Below are positions 7,197 through 63,688 of a stretch of DNA of 64,000 bases, in pieces. The notes below the pieces were generated by a model. It was not told the DNA's origin, made no database searches, and was given only the letters and a program-made list of their open reading frames with translations. The translations under genes were made by a program, and so were the position numbers. Origin of the DNA: Iphinoe sp. HA4291-MV1 (GTDB taxonomy: Bacteria; Cyanobacteriota; Cyanobacteriia; Cyanobacteriales; Nostocaceae); contig JAHHHH010000019.1 in NCBI GenBank assembly GCA_019359415.1, positions 30,346-94,345 on the forward strand, written 5' to 3'. How positions within the stretch are numbered: position 1 is the stretch's first letter; every line of letters begins with the position of its first letter.

Positions 7197-8726
7197 ATGG
7201 CTGTATTGTCTTTTCTACTTGTACGTATGTCCAATTGTCCTTTGAATGTTGCAACAATATTCTTTTGGCGACGACTGCTTGCTGCTGCAATTTTTAGCAG
7301 TAGTTTGCTGATTCCCTTGTTAAAGAATCAGCCAGCAGGAGCGCAACTCACTGCGTATTGCCAATTATTACCAGCAGCGGCGCAAGAAAAAGAAAACTTA
7401 CGTTTGTCAGCACTCAGAGGCGATCAACAGGCACAAAGTCGTTATCAGCAGCTGTTGCAACAACATGCACAAGTTTTGCAGGATTGCCGCAATCGTACTT
7501 GGCCTGGGTTGCAAGCAATCTGGTTACGCTTGTATCCCTGTGATGTCCGGCCAGGATCTGTTGACCAAATTATGGATCGGATTATCAACAGAGGTTATAA
7601 TGAAGTTTATTTGGAAGTTTTTTACGACGGTCAGGTACTCCTGCCAACAGGGTCTAACCCCACTGTTTGGCCTTCTGTGATTCGCACACCAGGAACAGAA
7701 AAGACTGATTTGCTCGCCACAGCAATTCAAAAAGGGCGGGAACGTGGTCTGAAGGTTTACGCTTGGATGTTCGCCACAAATTTCGGCTATACTTATGCCC
7801 AGCGTTCAAATAGAGAAGGGGCGATCGCCCGCAACGGAAAAGGTCAAACGAGCCTCTATGTCGTAGATAACGGCTCTCAAGTCTTTATCGATCCTTACAA
7901 TTTGCAAGCCAAACGGGATTACTATCAAATGTTACAGGAAGTGCTGCGCCGTCGCCCAGATGGGGTACTCTTCGACTATGTACGCTATCCACGCCAGGCA
8001 GGTAGTGATTCCATCGCCACAAAAGTCACAGATTTATGGCTGTATAGTGAAGCTACCCAACAGGCTTTATTCCGACGGGCACTGAACAACAAAGGATTGG
8101 AATTAATTAAACGCTTTTTAGGTAAAGGATATATCACAGCAGGAGATGTCAGTCAAGTCGATAAGCTCTTTCCTCAAGAAGGAGAACCCTTGTGGCAAGG
8201 TCGCACTCCACCCCAAGAGCAAAAGTCAATCATTCCCCCAGGTGAAAGGCAACCGCAACTACAATCGGAGTTGTGGCAGTTAGCAGTTGCTCACGCGATG
8301 CAAGGCATCATAGATTTTTTAGCCCTAGCTGCCTATCCAGCACAGCAACAAAGTATTCCAGTAGGAGCAGTATTTTTTCCTGATGGTAACCAAATGGTCG
8401 GTCAAGGATATGATTCCCGCTTGCAACCTTGGGATAAGTTCCCAAACACAATAGAGTGGCATCCCATGTCATATGCAAATTGCGCTAGTGCTGATTGTAT
8501 TGCAACGCAGGTGCAGCGAGTTTTGAACGTGGCAAAACCAGGTACTCAGGTAATTCCAGCTTTAGCTGGTAAGTGGGGAGAATCAATAAGCAATCGTCCT
8601 CCCTTAGAAGTACAAATGCAGGCACTCCGCCAACTTGCACCGCAACTGAGAGGAGTCAGTCATTTTGCTTATTCTTGGCAAGACCCACAGCATGATAACC
8701 AGCGTAAGTTCTGTCGCGTGAAGTGA
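7197..8726 (+). CDS. Exported family-10-like glycosyl hydrolase (GHL10/DUF187-type)
   Basis: About 509 residues. An N-terminal hydrophobic segment (RRLLAAAIFSSSLLIPLL, about residues 26-45) is a signal peptide or anchor. The main domain is a TIM-barrel of the glycosyl-hydrolase-like GHL10 family: IMDRIINRGYNEVYLEVFYD, GRERGLKVYAWMFATNFGYT, DPYNLQAKRDYYQMLQEVLR and DGVLFDYVRYPRQ are the typical strand/helix blocks; the Asp in LFDYVRYP is a likely active-site residue. The substrate is unknown; a cell-wall or exopolysaccharide sugar is a reasonable guess. A TTG at 7194 directly precedes the ATG at 7197; an inner Met (MSNCPLN) is possible too. A heptamer repeat array follows the stop. Confidence 0.85.
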   Translation: MAVLSFLLVRMSNCPLNVATIFFWRRLLAAAIFSSSLLIPLLKNQPAGAQLTAYCQLLPAAAQEKENLRLSALRGDQQAQSRYQQLLQQHAQVLQDCRNRTWPGLQAIWLRLYPCDVRPGSVDQIMDRIINRGYNEVYLEVFYDGQVLLPTGSNPTVWPSVIRTPGTEKTDLLATAIQKGRERGLKVYAWMFATNFGYTYAQRSNREGAIARNGKGQTSLYVVDNGSQVFIDPYNLQAKRDYYQMLQEVLRRRPDGVLFDYVRYPRQAGSDSIATKVTDLWLYSEATQQALFRRALNNKGLELIKRFLGKGYITAGDVSQVDKLFPQEGEPLWQGRTPPQEQKSIIPPGERQPQLQSELWQLAVAHAMQGIIDFLALAAYPAQQQSIPVGAVFFPDGNQMVGQGYDSRLQPWDKFPNTIEWHPMSYANCASADCIATQVQRVLNVAKPGTQVIPALAGKWGESISNRPPLEVQMQALRQLAPQLRGVSHFAYSWQDPQHDNQRKFCRVK

Positions 8727-56552: not shown

Positions 56553-56959
56553 TTTGTGATGGGGATGCTTTTACTGTAGCAATTGGTCATCCTGGTTATA
56601 TGCCCAGCGAACAAGCACAGGGCGAACCGAAATTGAGTAGTGATATTTATGCAGTCGGAATTATTTGTATTTATGCTTTAACAGGTAGAAATCCCGATCC
56701 AAGACTTGGTAGGGGATTGCCAACACACCCCGATACAGGTGAAATTATTTGGCGAAATCAAGCACAGATTAGCCCTAAGTTAGCTAATTTTTTAGACAAA
56801 ATGGTTCGTTATGACTACCGTCAGCGTTACCAGTCAGCAGATGAAGCCTTGCAAGCTTTAAAAACGCTATTACCTAATACTTCAACTAGAAAACAAATAC
56901 TACCTACGAAAATTCACTGGCGGTGCACTCATATGAAATGTATACGTAACTCACTCTAG
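56553..56959 (+). pseudogene. Ser/Thr protein kinase remnant (C-lobe piece)
   Basis: The reading frame gives VCDGDAFTVAIGHPGYMPSE then QAQGEPKLSSDIYAVGIICI, YALTGRNPDPRLGRGLPTHP and LDKMVRYDYRQRYQSADEAL. This is the activation segment and C-lobe of a cyanobacterial Hanks-type kinase (GTPGYMPSEQ...SDIYAVG...ALTG), but the N-lobe with the ATP site and the HRD catalytic loop is missing. Its 5' end is cut exactly at the heptamer array. The end lies in normal sequence; about 20 residues at the C terminus (KQILPTKIHWRCTHMK) are unlike the family. Confidence 0.75.
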
Positions 56960-58107: not shown

Positions 58108-58458
58108 TTATTGCAATATGGCATTACAGTATTCGATGAGAGTTGTCAGGCGATCGCCTATGGCATCAAGTCTACTTTTGGCAGTGGAAGCTTGCCGCGC
58201 TCCTTGGAAAAATATCATATCTATTTCCAATAGCCGCAGCTGCTTACTCATTTCCGTCTGATATGACTGTAACCGACCCTCATCGTTGCTATCTGTGTCC
58301 AGACCAACCAAAGGCACAATCTGTTGCTGAAAAAATTGCTGCAAGGATCTCACACTCTGCTGTAGTTCGGATGCATCTACTTTGGTAGTCATGACATCCG
58401 AATGCAATTGTTTCAGTAATATCTTCAATACGTGATATTTATCGCGAATTAGAGACAT
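58108..58458 (-). CDS. Small helical protein, possibly PatD-like (heterocyst frequency control)
   Basis: 116 residues, all-helical and polar apart from heptad-like leucines: KYHVLKILLKQLHSDVMTTK, ELQQSVRSLQQFFQQQIVPL, EMSKQLRLLEIDMIFFQGAR, SRLDAIGDRLTTLIEYCNAI. No signal or membrane segment. The length and the pattern remind me of PatD, a small protein that limits heterocyst number in Anabaena, but that match is from memory only, so I give no symbol. If right, it supports a heterocyst-forming host. It sits alone, facing away from the Rel genes. Confidence 0.7.
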   Translation of the reverse strand: MSLIRDKYHVLKILLKQLHSDVMTTKVDASELQQSVRSLQQFFQQQIVPLVGLDTDSNDEGRLQSYQTEMSKQLRLLEIDMIFFQGARQASTAKSRLDAIGDRLTTLIEYCNAILQ

Positions 58459-58775: not shown

Positions 58776-61049
58776 ATGAGCAGCACTGTAATGACTTCCA
58801 GAATTGATATTACCCTTCCAGAATGGCTACAGATTTGTCTAAATGGGTCATCTACACAAAACGCCGCAGCAGAAGATAACCGAAGGCAAAGCGATATGGC
58901 TTTAATTCGTCGAGCATTTGAATTTGCTTATCAGTTGCATCAGGGTCAGTACCGTAAGTCAGGAGAACCATACATTTGTCATCCTGTAGCTGTAGCTGGA
59001 ATGCTACGTGACTTAGGAGGCAGTGCTGATATGATAGCAGCTGGATTTCTCCATGACGTAGTGGAAGATACAGATGTCACGATTGAAGAGATAGAGCAGC
59101 GTTTTAGTAAAGAAGTGCGGCTCTTGGTAGAAGGTGTGACAAAGCTTTCTAAAATTAATTTCAAAAGTAAGACTGAAAGCCAAGCAGAGAACTTTCGCAG
59201 AATGTTTCTGGCAATGGCGCAAGATATTAGAGTGATTGTGGTAAAATTAACAGACCGCCTGCACAATATGCGGACTCTGGAACACCTTGCAGATGAAAAA
59301 CGCCGCCGGATTGCTTTGGAAACACGAGAAATTTTTGCCCCCTTAGCAAATCGCTTGGGGATCTGGCGCATAAAATGGGAACTGGAAGATTTAGCTTTTA
59401 AGTACTTAGAACCAGAACCTTACCGGCAAATTCAGGAATATGTAGCCGAAAAACGGGTAGCGCAGGAAGAGAGATGGACGAAAGTTACCGAAATGTTGCA
59501 GCCTCGGTTTGTGGAAGCAGGAATTAAATGTCTTGACATCAGTGGGCGTTCAAAACACCTGTACAACATTTACTTAAAGATGCACAGGCAAAACAAAGAG
59601 TTTCACGAAATTTACGATTTAGCAGCGCTAGGGATTGTTGTCAATAGCAATGAGGAATGTTACCGTGCTTTGGCGATTGTCCACGATGCTTTCCGCCCAA
59701 TTCCTGGTAGATTCAAGGATTACATAGGCTTGCCTAAACCTAACCGTTACCAATCATTGCATACAGCGGTCATTGGTCCGTGGGGTCGTCCTTTAGAGGT
59801 GCAAATCCGGACACTCGAGATGCATCACGTCGCTGAATATGGAATCGCAGCTCAATGGAAGTATAAAGAAACAGGAGGCTCCAACACTATCCATTGGACG
59901 GCATCAGATGACAAGTTTACCTGGTTGCGTCAGCTTTTGGAATGGCAGAATGACCTCAAGGATGCTCAAGAATATCTGGAAAGCATCAAGGATAACTTGT
60001 TTGAAGATGATGTTTATGTTTTCACACCTAAGGGAGATTTAGTTGCTTTAAATCCAGGTTCTACAACTATAGATTTTGCTTATCGCATTCATACAGAAGT
60101 TGGGAACCACTGTGCAGGAGCAAAGGTGAATGGACGGAGAGTACCACTTTCAACGCGACTGCAAAATGGTGATATTGTAGAGATTCTGACGCAAAAGAAC
60201 AGTTATCCTAGTTTGGATTGGTTAAACTTTGTCAGAACTTCAGCTGCTAAGAATCGGATAAAACAGTGGTACAAGCGATCGCGCCGAGAAGAAAATATAG
60301 CCCGTGGTTGGGAATTGTTAGAGAAAGAACTGGGTAAACCTGGTGTTGAAAACTTGATTCAGGCGGAACCGATGCAGATTGTCGCACAGCGATGTCATTA
60401 TCAGTCTGTGGAAGATTTACTCGCGGCTTTGGGTTACGGTGAAGTAACGCTGAATGTAGTGCTAAACCGTTGGCGAGAAGTCGTCAAAGCCCAACAACCT
60501 ATTGCAACTGCACCCCAAGTTCCTATAGAAGAGCCAACATCTGCACAAAAAGCATTGTGGGAAGTAGCTTCAACAAACTCTATTACCAGTGAATCCCCAA
60601 TAGTTGGCATCGAAGGATTAGTGTACTATGTAGCTAGGTGCTGTACCCCCATTCCTGGAGAATCGATTATTGGTGTCGTGACCAGAGGTAAGGGAATTGC
60701 AATACATCGCCAAGGATGTCAGAATCTGGAGAACGTGGAGTGCGATCGCTTAGTGCCAGTCCATTGGAACCCAGCAAGTAAACTCCAAAGTTGTCCTCGA
60801 ACCTACCCTGTGAATATTCAGATTGAAGTCATGGATAGAGTAGGAGTGCTAAAGGATATTCTCTCACGTTTGAGTGACCAAGGAATCAACGTGTGTCATG
60901 CTCAGGTCAAAACTGCTCATGGTCAACCAGCATTAATTGATCTAGGTATAGAGATCTGCGATCAATCGCAACTAGAACAACTGTTCACTCAAATCAAGCA
61001 ACTAAGCGACATTCTCAATATCCGTCGCATTAGTTCACCAGAAGAGTAG
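58776..61049 (+). CDS. RelA/SpoT-family (p)ppGpp enzyme, copy 1 (hydrolase intact, synthetase residues altered)
   Basis: 757 residues with the full Rel layout: HD hydrolase, synthetase, TGS, helical, and ACT. The hydrolase site is complete: H69, H93-D94, E97-D98 (FLHDVVEDT) and D160/N164 (KLTDRLHNMRTL). Synthetase: YDLAALG at 280-286, RFKD at 312-315, NRYQSLHT, EVQIRT (catalytic Glu341) and AAQWKYKE. In families I know, the residue after YDxxAx is Arg (here Gly286) and AAHW has His (here Gln360); both are changed. TGS starts near VYVFTPKGDLVAL and the ACT domain is at about 675-750 (VNIQIEVMDRVGVLKDILSR). Copy 2 follows 275 bases later. Could be the main (p)ppGpp hydrolase, with synthesis weak. 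Confidence 0.92.
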   Translation: MSSTVMTSRIDITLPEWLQICLNGSSTQNAAAEDNRRQSDMALIRRAFEFAYQLHQGQYRKSGEPYICHPVAVAGMLRDLGGSADMIAAGFLHDVVEDTDVTIEEIEQRFSKEVRLLVEGVTKLSKINFKSKTESQAENFRRMFLAMAQDIRVIVVKLTDRLHNMRTLEHLADEKRRRIALETREIFAPLANRLGIWRIKWELEDLAFKYLEPEPYRQIQEYVAEKRVAQEERWTKVTEMLQPRFVEAGIKCLDISGRSKHLYNIYLKMHRQNKEFHEIYDLAALGIVVNSNEECYRALAIVHDAFRPIPGRFKDYIGLPKPNRYQSLHTAVIGPWGRPLEVQIRTLEMHHVAEYGIAAQWKYKETGGSNTIHWTASDDKFTWLRQLLEWQNDLKDAQEYLESIKDNLFEDDVYVFTPKGDLVALNPGSTTIDFAYRIHTEVGNHCAGAKVNGRRVPLSTRLQNGDIVEILTQKNSYPSLDWLNFVRTSAAKNRIKQWYKRSRREENIARGWELLEKELGKPGVENLIQAEPMQIVAQRCHYQSVEDLLAALGYGEVTLNVVLNRWREVVKAQQPIATAPQVPIEEPTSAQKALWEVASTNSITSESPIVGIEGLVYYVARCCTPIPGESIIGVVTRGKGIAIHRQGCQNLENVECDRLVPVHWNPASKLQSCPRTYPVNIQIEVMDRVGVLKDILSRLSDQGINVCHAQVKTAHGQPALIDLGIEICDQSQLEQLFTQIKQLSDILNIRRISSPEE

Positions 61050-61324
61050 TTATAGTAGTTTTCTACAACCACCAGAACGATTTGCTCCCTCACCTCCTTG
61101 CGAAGCAAAGAAAAGCGCTGTCGCATTCCTTTGGAAAAACGAAAAATGTTTGCTCCCTTATCCCTTTGTTTAGGAATTTAGTACATTAAGTAGTAACTGG
61201 AAGATTTAGCGCGTATATTCTCTGAAAAAAGAGATTTAATCTCGTTGCCTACTAACTCAACACCTGGAGTTTTGCATATAAAATACATAAAAAAATGGAA
61301 ATTGTAATTATACAAGGATAGTTT

Positions 61325-63688
61325 ATGACGTTAATAGCCGGTCAAGTCAATAGTACTTTCGACATAGATTCTTTCCTGAGAGGGAAGATTACAACTGGTC
61401 ATCTCATTAATCATATGCCTGAGGAGTTGTTGAATTTTTTAAAACATTTAGCTGCTGAAGATTTTTTTTCAACAGAAATTGGGCATATCGTAGAACTTGT
61501 CACTAAGGAACTGTACGAGTTGACCTCAGACTTGAATATAGCTGTCGCTGGTTTTATCTACACTTACTCTCTATTAAAAAATACTGATATTTGCGAACAA
61601 AATATAGAAAATATTGTCAATTATAATCCAGATATCTCTAACCAGTTGAAAAGCTTAAGAGTATTGTCTAAGTGTATTTCAAAATTTAAAGTAGCGTCTT
61701 CCTCTCATAAAAGCTTTTTTGAAGGAGAAAATTTTAGAAGACTACTATTTGTTGTTACCAGAGATATCAGAGCACTATTTATTGAACTCGTTTATAGACG
61801 AGTTATATTAGAAAATATAAATTGTATTGTATCCTTGAGAAAATTTTTGAAGGATAACTTTGTTATTGAAACTTTCAAAATTTTTGTTCCTATTGCTAAC
61901 AGACTTGGTCTTTGGAGTGTCAAGTGGAAATTAGAAGATTTTTCCTTCAGAGAATTGGAAAGCGAAATTTATTTTCGGATTGTTGCTCTGCTCTCTGAGA
62001 CTCGCTCAGAAAGAGAGAAGTATATGAACTATTGCATTGAGGAGATACGCAATAATCTTTTGGAGAATGGTTTTTTGGGTGGAAAGTTTGAAGTGTTTGG
62101 GAGAACAAAAAACATATATAGTATATATGCAAAAATGAAGCAACTCTACTGCTATACTAGAGGGACAGTTCCTAGTAAGTTTCCATCTGGTGAGTTTAAC
62201 AAGTTTCTATATAGTAACTTTAATACTTGCTTTGAATCTGTGTACGACTTGTTTGGTATTAGAGTCTTGTGCAACTCAATACCAGACTGTTACGCTGCAC
62301 TAGGAGTCATACATAGTTTATTTCATCCAGCACAGACTCCAAGAAGGAATAGTAGTCACTTCATTGATTATATAGCTGTACCCAAATCAAATGGTTATCG
62401 CTCTCTTCACACTGTTGTTATTGGACCAATGCAGAAGAGGTTAGAAGTTCAGATAAGAACTTCTGAAATGGATGCACAAGCAGAGTATGGTATCGCTGCA
62501 CACTGGAAATATAAAGAGTTTGGTCATTCACAATCTACTAACGAGGAAGAGTATATATTTGCTGATATTAAAAAGGTCATAAAAGAGCAAGGTCTCTCTG
62601 CTGTTCATAGTTTCCTTGAAGGTTTGGATAGCGATATATTTGGCTCAGGAATTTATGTATTTACACCAGAAGGAGATGTTATATCTTTAACAAAAAAATC
62701 TACCTCGGTTGACTTTGCTTACCGAATTCATACAGAGATTGGGAACCACTGTGCAGGAGCGCGGGTGAATGGGCGTATAGTGACTTTGGACACACCGCTG
62801 AAAAATGGGGACATTGTAGAGATTATCACCCAGAAGAATTCTCACCCCAGTTTGGACTGGCTGAACTTTGTGGTTTCGACACGTGCTCGAAACAGAATTC
62901 GTCAATGGTACAAGCGATCGCACCGGGAAGAAAACATTGCTCGTGGTCGAGAATTGTTGGAAAAAGAATTAGGGAGAGCAGGTGTTGAAAACTTGATTAA
63001 GTCACAACCAATGCAGATAGTTGCACAGCGGTGTAACTATCATTCTATGGAAGATTTGCTCGCAGGTTTGGGTTATGGCGAAGTAACGCTGAATTTAGTG
63101 CTTAACCGTTGGCGAGAAATCGTAAAGGCGCAACAACCTATCACAGATGCACCTCCAATTCTCACGAAAGAGTTGACTTCAACAACCAAAGCACTGCGAG
63201 ATGCACCTCCAGCTACCTCACGCACCACCGATTCACCAATAGTCGGGGTAGAAGGGTTAGTGCATTATTTCGCTAAATGTTGTACTCCTATTCCTGGAGA
63301 ACCAATTATAGGTATCGTAACACGAGGTAGGGGCATTTCGATTCATCACCAAAGATGTCACAATATAGAGAATGTAGAGTGCGATCGCCTAATACCAGTC
63401 CATTGGAACAGTACAAGCGAACTCCACACTCCTGGTGCGACTTATTCTGTGAATATTCAGATTGATGCTTTCGATCGCGTTGGACTTCTCAAGGATATTC
63501 TCTCACGCTTAAGTGATCAGGGGATCAACGTACGTCGTGCTCATCTAAGAACAGCTAATGGTCAACCAGCATTGATTGACTTGGAGATTGAGATACGCGA
63601 TCAACCACAACTGGAACAGATATTTACTCAAATCAAAAAACTGAGCGACATTCTCAACATTCGTCGTGTCGGTCAGGTTGAGGAATAA
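61325..63688 (+). CDS. RelA/SpoT-family paralogue, copy 2 (hydrolase lost, synthetase core kept)
   Basis: 787 residues. The N-terminal 200 residues align with the HD domain of copy 1 (IAVAGFIYTYSLLKNTDI for MIAAGFLHDVVEDTDV; ELVYRRVILENI for KLTDRLHNMRTL), but every catalytic His, Asp, Glu and Asn is gone. The synthetase keeps the usual residues: FGRTKNIYSIYAKM, YDLFGIR (Asp308, Arg313), NGYRSLHT, LEVQIRT (Glu374), AAHWKYKE. Instead of RFKD it has HFID at 345-348, between the RFKD of two-way Rel and the EFDD of E. coli RelA. An insert of about 27 residues (YCYTRGTVPSKFPSGEFNKF) precedes the YDLFG strand. From the TGS on, it is about as similar to copy 1 as a recent duplicate. The first 1.3 kb is AT-rich, the remainder is not. 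Confidence 0.9.
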   Translation: MTLIAGQVNSTFDIDSFLRGKITTGHLINHMPEELLNFLKHLAAEDFFSTEIGHIVELVTKELYELTSDLNIAVAGFIYTYSLLKNTDICEQNIENIVNYNPDISNQLKSLRVLSKCISKFKVASSSHKSFFEGENFRRLLFVVTRDIRALFIELVYRRVILENINCIVSLRKFLKDNFVIETFKIFVPIANRLGLWSVKWKLEDFSFRELESEIYFRIVALLSETRSEREKYMNYCIEEIRNNLLENGFLGGKFEVFGRTKNIYSIYAKMKQLYCYTRGTVPSKFPSGEFNKFLYSNFNTCFESVYDLFGIRVLCNSIPDCYAALGVIHSLFHPAQTPRRNSSHFIDYIAVPKSNGYRSLHTVVIGPMQKRLEVQIRTSEMDAQAEYGIAAHWKYKEFGHSQSTNEEEYIFADIKKVIKEQGLSAVHSFLEGLDSDIFGSGIYVFTPEGDVISLTKKSTSVDFAYRIHTEIGNHCAGARVNGRIVTLDTPLKNGDIVEIITQKNSHPSLDWLNFVVSTRARNRIRQWYKRSHREENIARGRELLEKELGRAGVENLIKSQPMQIVAQRCNYHSMEDLLAGLGYGEVTLNLVLNRWREIVKAQQPITDAPPILTKELTSTTKALRDAPPATSRTTDSPIVGVEGLVHYFAKCCTPIPGEPIIGIVTRGRGISIHHQRCHNIENVECDRLIPVHWNSTSELHTPGATYSVNIQIDAFDRVGLLKDILSRLSDQGINVRRAHLRTANGQPALIDLEIEIRDQPQLEQIFTQIKKLSDILNIRRVGQVEE

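Follow-up and report, generated by a model that had tools for sequence, protein, structure and literature searches.

Two long RSH genes stand in tandem at the end of a Nostocaceae contig

We analyzed a window of 64,000 nucleotides from contig JAHHHH010000019.1 of the cyanobacterium Iphinoe sp. HA4291-MV1 (assembly GCA_019359415.1, positions 30,346 to 94,345 of the forward strand). Two intact long RelA/SpoT homolog (RSH) genes lie there in tandem on the + strand, 275 bp apart and free of internal stops. The first, which we call copy 1 or gene A (58776..61049, 757 aa), encodes a Rel with an intact (p)ppGpp hydrolase domain and a synthetase carrying P259S, R286G, I288V, and H360Q. The second, copy 2 or gene C (61325..63688, 787 aa), encodes a long RSH in which the hydrolase (HD) part appears dead and the synthetase intact. 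The Pfam models RelA_SpoT, TGS, and ACT match both proteins strongly. The contig ends 315 bases past the last sense codon of copy 2. The host genome (7.36 Mb in 140 contigs, 95% complete) holds these two RSHs only, as judged from searches with copy 1, copy 2, and Pfam PF04607; the PF04607 search found no further synthetase (RelA_SpoT) domain in this 95% complete assembly. Promoter and terminator scans gave no excess over shuffled sequence. The residues called catalytic below follow the general picture of Rel enzymes, unless a paper is named.

Copy 1 keeps the hydrolase residues and has lost two invariant synthetase positions

The hydrolase domain of copy 1 (codons 40-200, 58893..59375, +) has all its catalytic residues in place (R60, H69, H93-D94, E97-D98, D160, and N164) and scores 176.7 bits against Pfam HD_4. 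The synthetase domain (codons 241-372, 59496..59891, +) has a G at R286 and a Q at H360. Both columns are invariant in 111 reference Rel synthetase domains, all from genomes lacking copy 2, and both residues are also kept in 13 of 13 aligned non-cyanobacterial RSHs. They correspond to R280 and H354 of E. coli RelA (numbers counted from the alignment to 5iqr) and pair with R313 and H393 of copy 2, where they are kept; the loss is reciprocal, a point absent from the original prediction. The references comprise 31 full Rels and 80 fetched domains, the latter hand-picked among the matches listed; since L161 and L162 repeat genomes, the 111 span 109 genomes at most. Among the positions invariant in this set (G257, R258, P259, K260, D281, R286, R312, K314, and H360), copy 1 breaks P259, R286, and H360. 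We had considered P259S a diagnostic lesion, as P stands in 111 of 111 references and P253S of E. coli is linked to lower ppGpp (PMC4154780); it carries little weight because other RSHs have other residues at that position.

Counted over the whole synthetase domain, 3 of the 62 invariant columns are broken in copy 1. Leaving out each reference in turn, 102 of the 111 show no break, seven show one, one shows two, and one shows three. Against the 31 full references, copy 1 violates 1 of 88 invariant columns in the HD domain and 4 of 73 in the synthetase domain. Compared with the Rel of HT-58-2, copy 1 differs at 21 of 136 synthetase and 68 of 352 C-terminal positions, as against 10-15 of 136 and 37-40 of 351-352 in seven relatives, while its HD domain is not unusual (17 of 196 positions, 11-19 in the relatives). 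By tree, copy 1 is the ortholog of the bifunctional cyanobacterial Rel, 84-87% identical to the aligned Rels of the Brasilonema/Scytonema group. It scores 651.0 bits on the NCBIfam SpoT equivalog NF008303, below the 947-bit cut-off. Of the two marks of SpoT[Hs], a long RSH that only hydrolyzes, copy 1 shows the intact hydrolase residues, and in its synthetase R286 and H360 are gone while the other core residues remain.

Copy 2 has lost the hydrolase residues and keeps the synthetase core

The original prediction, made from the letters of the window, held that copy 1 retains all the named HD residues and that copy 2 has lost all of them while keeping the synthetase core. The alignment bears out the first statement. 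For copy 2, seven of the eight hydrolase residues listed above are gone, those in the H69, H93, D94, E97, D98, and D160 columns and R60; the N164 column still holds N. From the H69 column on, copy 2 reads E57, Y79-T80, K85-N86, Y157, and N164. The synthetase core is kept as predicted (D308, R313, Y358, E374, and H393).

The pseudo-hydrolase region of copy 2 (about codons 33-193, 61421..61903, +) still scores 35.0 bits on HD_4, over the 27.2 cut-off, and the protein has the complete long-RSH architecture HD-SYNTH-TGS-helical-ACT, with matches to HD_4, RelA_SpoT, TGS, RelA_AH_RIS, and ACT_4. The TGS His and the zinc-finger Cys/His positions, which we take to be the functional ones, are kept. In the synthetase domain (codons 255-398, 62087..62518, +), the motif that reads RXKD in bifunctional Rel and EXDD in E. 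coli RelA is HXID, and residues are inserted before the YDL motif and before HXID. Thus, by residues copy 2 falls under RelA[hS] as far as the lost hydrolase residues and the kept synthetase core are concerned, and EXDD is lacking. It scores 574.8 bits on TIGR00691 (cut-off 499.2). On NF008124, the NCBIfam RelA equivalog, its 453.9 bits stay below the 728 cut-off and exceed its own score of 418.5 on the SpoT model.

An AlphaFold model of copy 2 from a 40-row alignment, which excluded the divergent relative in genome G372 described below, reached a mean predicted local distance difference test value (pLDDT) of 75.8 and a predicted template modelling score (pTM) of 0.58. It shows helices through the pseudo-hydrolase and a retained mixed synthetase fold. 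Among solved structures, this predicted fold comes closest to ribosome-bound E. coli RelA (5kpv, 5iqr), B. subtilis Rel (6yxa), and SpoT (7qpr).

Relatives carry a third gene, whose relic lies between copies 1 and 2

Scanning contigs, we found ten loci. Two hold orthologs of copy 2 at 73-74% identity (L034 and L035), and the other eight hold canonical Rel, which aligns with most of copy 2 at 54-56% identity. The orthologs in L034 and L035 have lost the same HD columns as copy 2; therefore, the losses are neither chance nor the product of one bad assembly. In L035, from a metagenome-assembled genome (MAG) of the Nostocales whose contig is identical to that in G014, the gene order is A-B-C. In L034, from a cyanobacterial MAG whose contig is identical to that in G041/G527, the order is B-C and A is located elsewhere. 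A PrlF-YhaV toxin-antitoxin pair lies directly 3' of gene C in L035 (L035:9100-9932).

In gene B, the HD residues are intact, the zinc-finger region is missing, and the synthetase is damaged. The two B genes break 14 and 15 of the 62 invariant synthetase columns, and both break G257, P259, K314, and H360 (G257E, P259S, K314S or Q, and H360Y). G257E and H360Y are G251E and H354Y in the numbering of E. coli RelA, where G251E is reported to abolish synthesis and H354Y to reduce it, while P253S comes from a strain whose ppGpp is lowered (PMC4154780). Since the zinc-finger region is absent, gene B may encode a hydrolase that the ribosome no longer controls. The A genes of these genomes are altered as well: A of G041 has R258H, P259S, R312K, and H360Q, and A of L035 has P259S and R312K, with R286 and H360 kept.

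Nucleotide matches place a relic of a B-type gene between copies 1 and 2, on the + strand. Its first part (61108..61211, from the HD/synthetase linker) aligns with B of L034 at 76% identity across 104 bp (E = 6e-17) and with copy 1 at 75% across 101 bp (3e-15). The second part (61226..61293, from the TGS region) matches B of L034 at 84% over 69 bp (E = 7e-16) and B of L035 at 83% (E = 9e-15), with no significant match to copy 1. The ancestor of the window therefore had an A-B-C trio, of which the present pair is the remainder.

Copy 2 is a mosaic under purifying selection

Trees of separate protein parts conflict with each other. The HD and synthetase parts of copy 2 group with other C proteins (support 98 and 100), while its C-terminal part falls among Brasilonema/Scytonema Rel. 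From codon 500 of copy 1 on, the nucleotide identity of copy 2 per 30 codons is 79-91% to the Rel of Brasilonema angustatum; in the same segments, copy 1 reaches 66-82% and C of L034 reaches 56-78%. The stretch from about codon 530 (62912..63688, +) was apparently converted from a Brasilonema-type Rel. Gene B is also mixed: its HD groups with A of its own genome (100 and 83) and its synthetase with the other B (100). Most simply, gene conversion would have copied the HD of B and the C-terminal half of C from A, while the dispensable parts diverged.

Selection was estimated as NG86 dN/dS. Between C of L034 and of L035 the ratio is 0.039 for the synthetase, 0.091 for the HD region, and 0.124 for the C-terminal part; between copy 2 and C of L034 the values are 0.068, 0.157, and 0.165. 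Several of the comparisons have a dS close to 1 or higher, which makes the ratios rough. The dN values point the same way: in the C pair of L034 and L035, the synthetase dN (0.037) is far under the HD dN (0.103), whereas the A genes of the same genomes show the opposite (HD 0.080, synthetase 0.122). In A pairs from genomes without C, the HD and synthetase dN are similar or the HD value is lower (HD 0.019-0.072, synthetase 0.017-0.115). Copy 2 is, by these substitution patterns, under purifying selection that is strongest in the synthetase.

The front half of copy 2 is not a recent duplicate of copy 1

We placed the front half of copy 2 in a tree of 50 RSHs from several phyla (190 columns), a subset of the available Rel sequences. 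In the best tree, C forms its own lineage. Grouping the C linker and synthetase with Brasilonema/Scytonema Rel, as expected for a recent duplicate of copy 1, was rejected by the approximately unbiased (AU) test (p = 0.025, log-likelihood difference 26), and so is a recent duplication of copy 1. A place inside the Rel of the family had AU p 0.072 and Kishino-Hasegawa (KH) p 0.039. Grouping C with all cyanobacterial Rel (AU p 0.256 and 0.345) or with proteobacterial RelA (AU p 0.281 and 0.329) was not rejected. Two earlier placements are not used as proof of origin. A small early tree nested C among the Rel of other families, which was not retained under wider sampling. A middle-sized, sparser tree joined C to E. 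coli RelA at 99.6/100, which became one of several unrejected placements once two RelA and more phyla were added. From these tests, the front half of copy 2 is a deep lineage and not a simple duplicate of copy 1.

These results revise the history in the original prediction, which saw a tandem pair whose second copy had turned RelA-like. The recent-duplicate grouping is rejected, the C-terminal half looks copied, and the locus once held a trio. Its proposal of an independent origin of the split is likely and short of proof, since the AU test does not reject a common origin of proteobacterial RelA and the front half of copy 2 (p = 0.28, 0.33). The proposed split of hydrolase and synthetase functions itself gains support beyond the original argument, as copy 1 has two damaged synthetase positions, two relatives are alike through gene B, and a single RelA_SpoT domain is the usual state in the family (188 of 210 genomes).

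Gene C is rare and patchy

Searched with a front-end profile of C (E ≤ 1e-45), 5 of 218 genomes of the family Nostocaceae gave a match: the own genome, G014, G527, G420, and G421. The last two carry a divergent lone form of C (C2). A draw of 388 genomes of the order gave two matches, the own genome and a C2 gene in G372, which belongs to another family. A C2-inclusive profile (E ≤ 1e-68) matched 1 of 386 genomes of the phylum, again the own genome. The genome draws overlap among the family, order, phylum, and PF04607 surveys. On the loci then in the set, the first profile scored 683-746 bits for C proteins, 185 for that of G372, and at most 133 for canonical or B proteins. The RXKD counterpart is HXID in three C1 proteins and EXAD in three divergent C2 proteins. 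The original prediction proposed looking for the pair in other Nostocales; two relatives have copy-2 orthologs, and the gene is rare (5/218, two of them with a lone C2). The back end of gene B was found in 0 of 388 genomes, a count of little weight as none of these is known to hold B. Plasmid and phage searches for C returned RSHs below 60% identity (66/66, 64/64, and 31/32 records); one phage record had a 60-80% identical match to the copy-2-type synthetase query.

The rule of one bifunctional Rel per cyanobacterium, assumed at the outset, agrees with the PF04607 survey, where a single RelA_SpoT domain was counted by hand in 188 of 210 family genomes, two or three in 21, and none in one. In 15 of 16 multi-match genomes without C, the extra matches are short RelA_SpoT frames (139-406 aa) besides one long Rel. 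A second long RSH in G447 (contig C46, L081:2953-5139) was set aside as likely contamination: the contig is GC-rich, its gene content is proteobacterial-looking by eye, and the gene is a spoT.

The C2 gene of G372 (L058:5568-8470) breaks frame near the zinc finger, and its C-terminal part continues in another frame with ACT at 8168-8470, indicating a broken gene or an assembly error. C2 genes of two families stand head to head with a Trypco1 (EACC1-like) gene (L064:10076-13063, L058:2122-5212). Genes of the trypsin, NB-ARC, and TPR kinds also lie beside C2 in both loci (by Pfam in L064, by eye in L058); these gene kinds are those of conflict systems described in PMC7159879. Upstream of copy 1 and divergent from it is a gene for the heterocyst frequency control protein PatD (58108-58458, -; NF037954, E 1e-44), and gene A in L035 is likewise preceded by an open reading frame (ORF) that looks PatD-like by eye (1199-1585). 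A 119-aa ORF at 56600-56959 is probably a gene fragment; its sole match, under the Pfam cut-off, is to the final part of a protein kinase domain.

A divided stringent-response switch is the favored reading

We favor, at a probability of roughly 0.6, a divided stringent-response switch in which copy 2 is a RelA-like, ribosome-sensing synthetase and copy 1 is mainly or only a hydrolase, the pair being left from an A-B-C trio. The best reading of the sequences is a RelA/SpoT-like division of labor in the Nostocaceae, apparently independent of the proteobacterial one. Copy 2 retains its TGS and zinc-finger residues, and when amino acids run short it would bind ribosomes with uncharged tRNA and make (p)ppGpp. 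It would be unable to hydrolyze (p)ppGpp, which copy 1 would remove, the copy 1 synthetase being presumably crippled through the loss of R286 and H360. As for the history, gene C would belong to an old lineage of long RSHs. Its front half would have diverged, and gene conversion from the resident Rel would have replaced its ribosome-binding back half. With C supplying synthesis, the HD-bearing copies A and B would then have lost synthetase residues.

Several observations weigh against this reading. R286 and H360 are both present in A of L035, whose genome may thus still possess a bifunctional Rel, and in three lone-C2 genomes the listed catalytic residues of A are kept; in one of these, G372, A nevertheless departs from 6 of 73 and from 4 of 62 columns that are invariant in the synthetase. 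One reference from another family, A_G027, whose genome lacks C, breaks three columns, as many as copy 1; the break count alone is thus unspecific, and it is the positions lost that are specific. Some RSHs from outside the cyanobacteria differ in column G257 or in column P259 (E, Q, A, M, V, or T), which makes P259S weak evidence. R286G and H360Q could each be a single-base error of the draft assembly, although H360Q recurs in A of G041. At the H354 position of E. coli RelA, copy 1 has Q and not Y, and H354Y there is reported to lower synthesis without abolishing it (PMC4154780). Finally, HXID in copy 2 is unlike the EXDD of RelA, and the placement of its C-terminal part among Brasilonema/Scytonema Rel has modest tree support (55; 89.5/84).

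The effect of H354Y would also suit an E. coli-like partial split, in which copy 2 is a dedicated synthetase and copy 1 is SpoT-like, bifunctional with weak synthesis. Copy 1 still has K260, D281, K321, N323, Y325, H329, E341, and Q343, and its synthetase is under purifying selection (dN/dS 0.08-0.11 against five relatives). However, copy 1 has lost together two positions that are both invariant in the references, and the B genes of the relatives are much more damaged; we regard a partial split as rather unlikely. The rebuilt G-nucleotide loop of copy 2, with HXID in C1, EXAD in C2, and insertions in place of RXKD, raises another possibility, that copy 2 makes a different pyrophosphorylated nucleotide or prefers another acceptor, as the RXKD/EXDD motif is reported to set the preference for GTP or GDP (PMC3153485). 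The catalytic core and H393 are kept, however, and E. coli RelA, also non-RXKD, makes (p)ppGpp nonetheless, which leaves an altered product improbable. We consider it just as hard to credit that copy 2 is decaying or inactive, perhaps a mere binding partner of copy 1. Its rarity and its HD dN/dS of 0.157 against L034, over the 0.04-0.12 seen for HD in A pairs, would fit decay, but the 787-aa frame is open, orthologs at 73-74% identity persist in two other genomes, and the synthetase dN/dS is 0.04-0.10.

Returning to the divided switch, it may be a further independent, complete split of a long RSH, in which an old or foreign HD-dead synthetase front end was captured, received the back end of the resident Rel by gene conversion, and was followed by the loss of synthesis in the resident Rel and its duplicate. 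The reciprocal positions of the catalytic lesions and the living intermediates (A-B-C, B-C with a separate A, and A-relic-C) are in its favor; we hold this course of events to be slightly less than an even bet.

Relation to known RSH systems

The closest parallel is the RelA[hS]/SpoT[Hs] pair of the Moraxellaceae (e.g., Acinetobacter), where one long RSH has a pseudo-HD and an active synthetase and the other has an active HD and a pseudo-synthetase, described in PMC9974481 and PMC3153485 as complete subfunctionalization. The present pair differs in its cyanobacterial host, in the adjacency of the genes, in the third gene B or its relic, in the lesions (HXID, R286G, and H360Q), and in the mosaic copy 2 with a back half like Rel of the resident lineage. 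Of the solved structures, E. coli RelA (5iqr, 5kps) matches the sequence of copy 2 best (E 4e-118), and 5kpv is the best for its predicted fold (E 7e-34). RelA and copy 2 share a dead HD and the loss of RXKD, whereas EXDD stands in RelA and HXID in copy 2, which is below the RelA equivalog cut-off. The bifunctional cyanobacterial Rel (e.g., Anabaena all1549) is orthologous to copy 1, which differs from it in the loss of R286 and H360 and in a synthetase and C-terminal half more diverged than in its sisters. A Bacteroides sequence with a degenerate HD (L196), which we guess to be an RshB, keeps R at the first RXKD position. Bacteroidetes RshB resembles copy 2 as a second long RSH with an HD more diverged than the synthetase, and differs in being reported as nested in Bacteroidetes Rel (PMC3153485).

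Atkinson et al. list Rel[HS] and small hydrolases for the Nostocales and describe subfunctionalization of RelA/SpoT and in the Moraxellaceae (PMC3153485). According to a 2014 review, all of 83 cyanobacterial genomes encode bifunctional homologs, three of these genomes have two annotated copies, and Anabaena has one gene, which is essential (PMC4284465). RSHs are treated from the proteobacterial side in PMC9974481 and from the cyanobacterial side in PMC13273366. Among the matches listed in the open-licence literature, we found no report of a RelA/SpoT-like split in cyanobacteria.

Proteobacteria are known for a split of the RelA/SpoT type; in cyanobacteria, which as a rule have a single enzyme for both reactions, it comes as a surprise. 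Here, a cyanobacterial lineage apparently makes and destroys the alarmone with two proteins, and the intermediates are preserved. This allows a comparison with the proteobacterial split, as to which residues are lost first and whether loss of the HD repeatedly accompanies loss of RXKD. It also informs how gene conversion keeps one domain alike while another diverges. If the division is confirmed, synthesis could be knocked out in such a cyanobacterium while sparing the hydrolase, which is hard to do with one dual enzyme.
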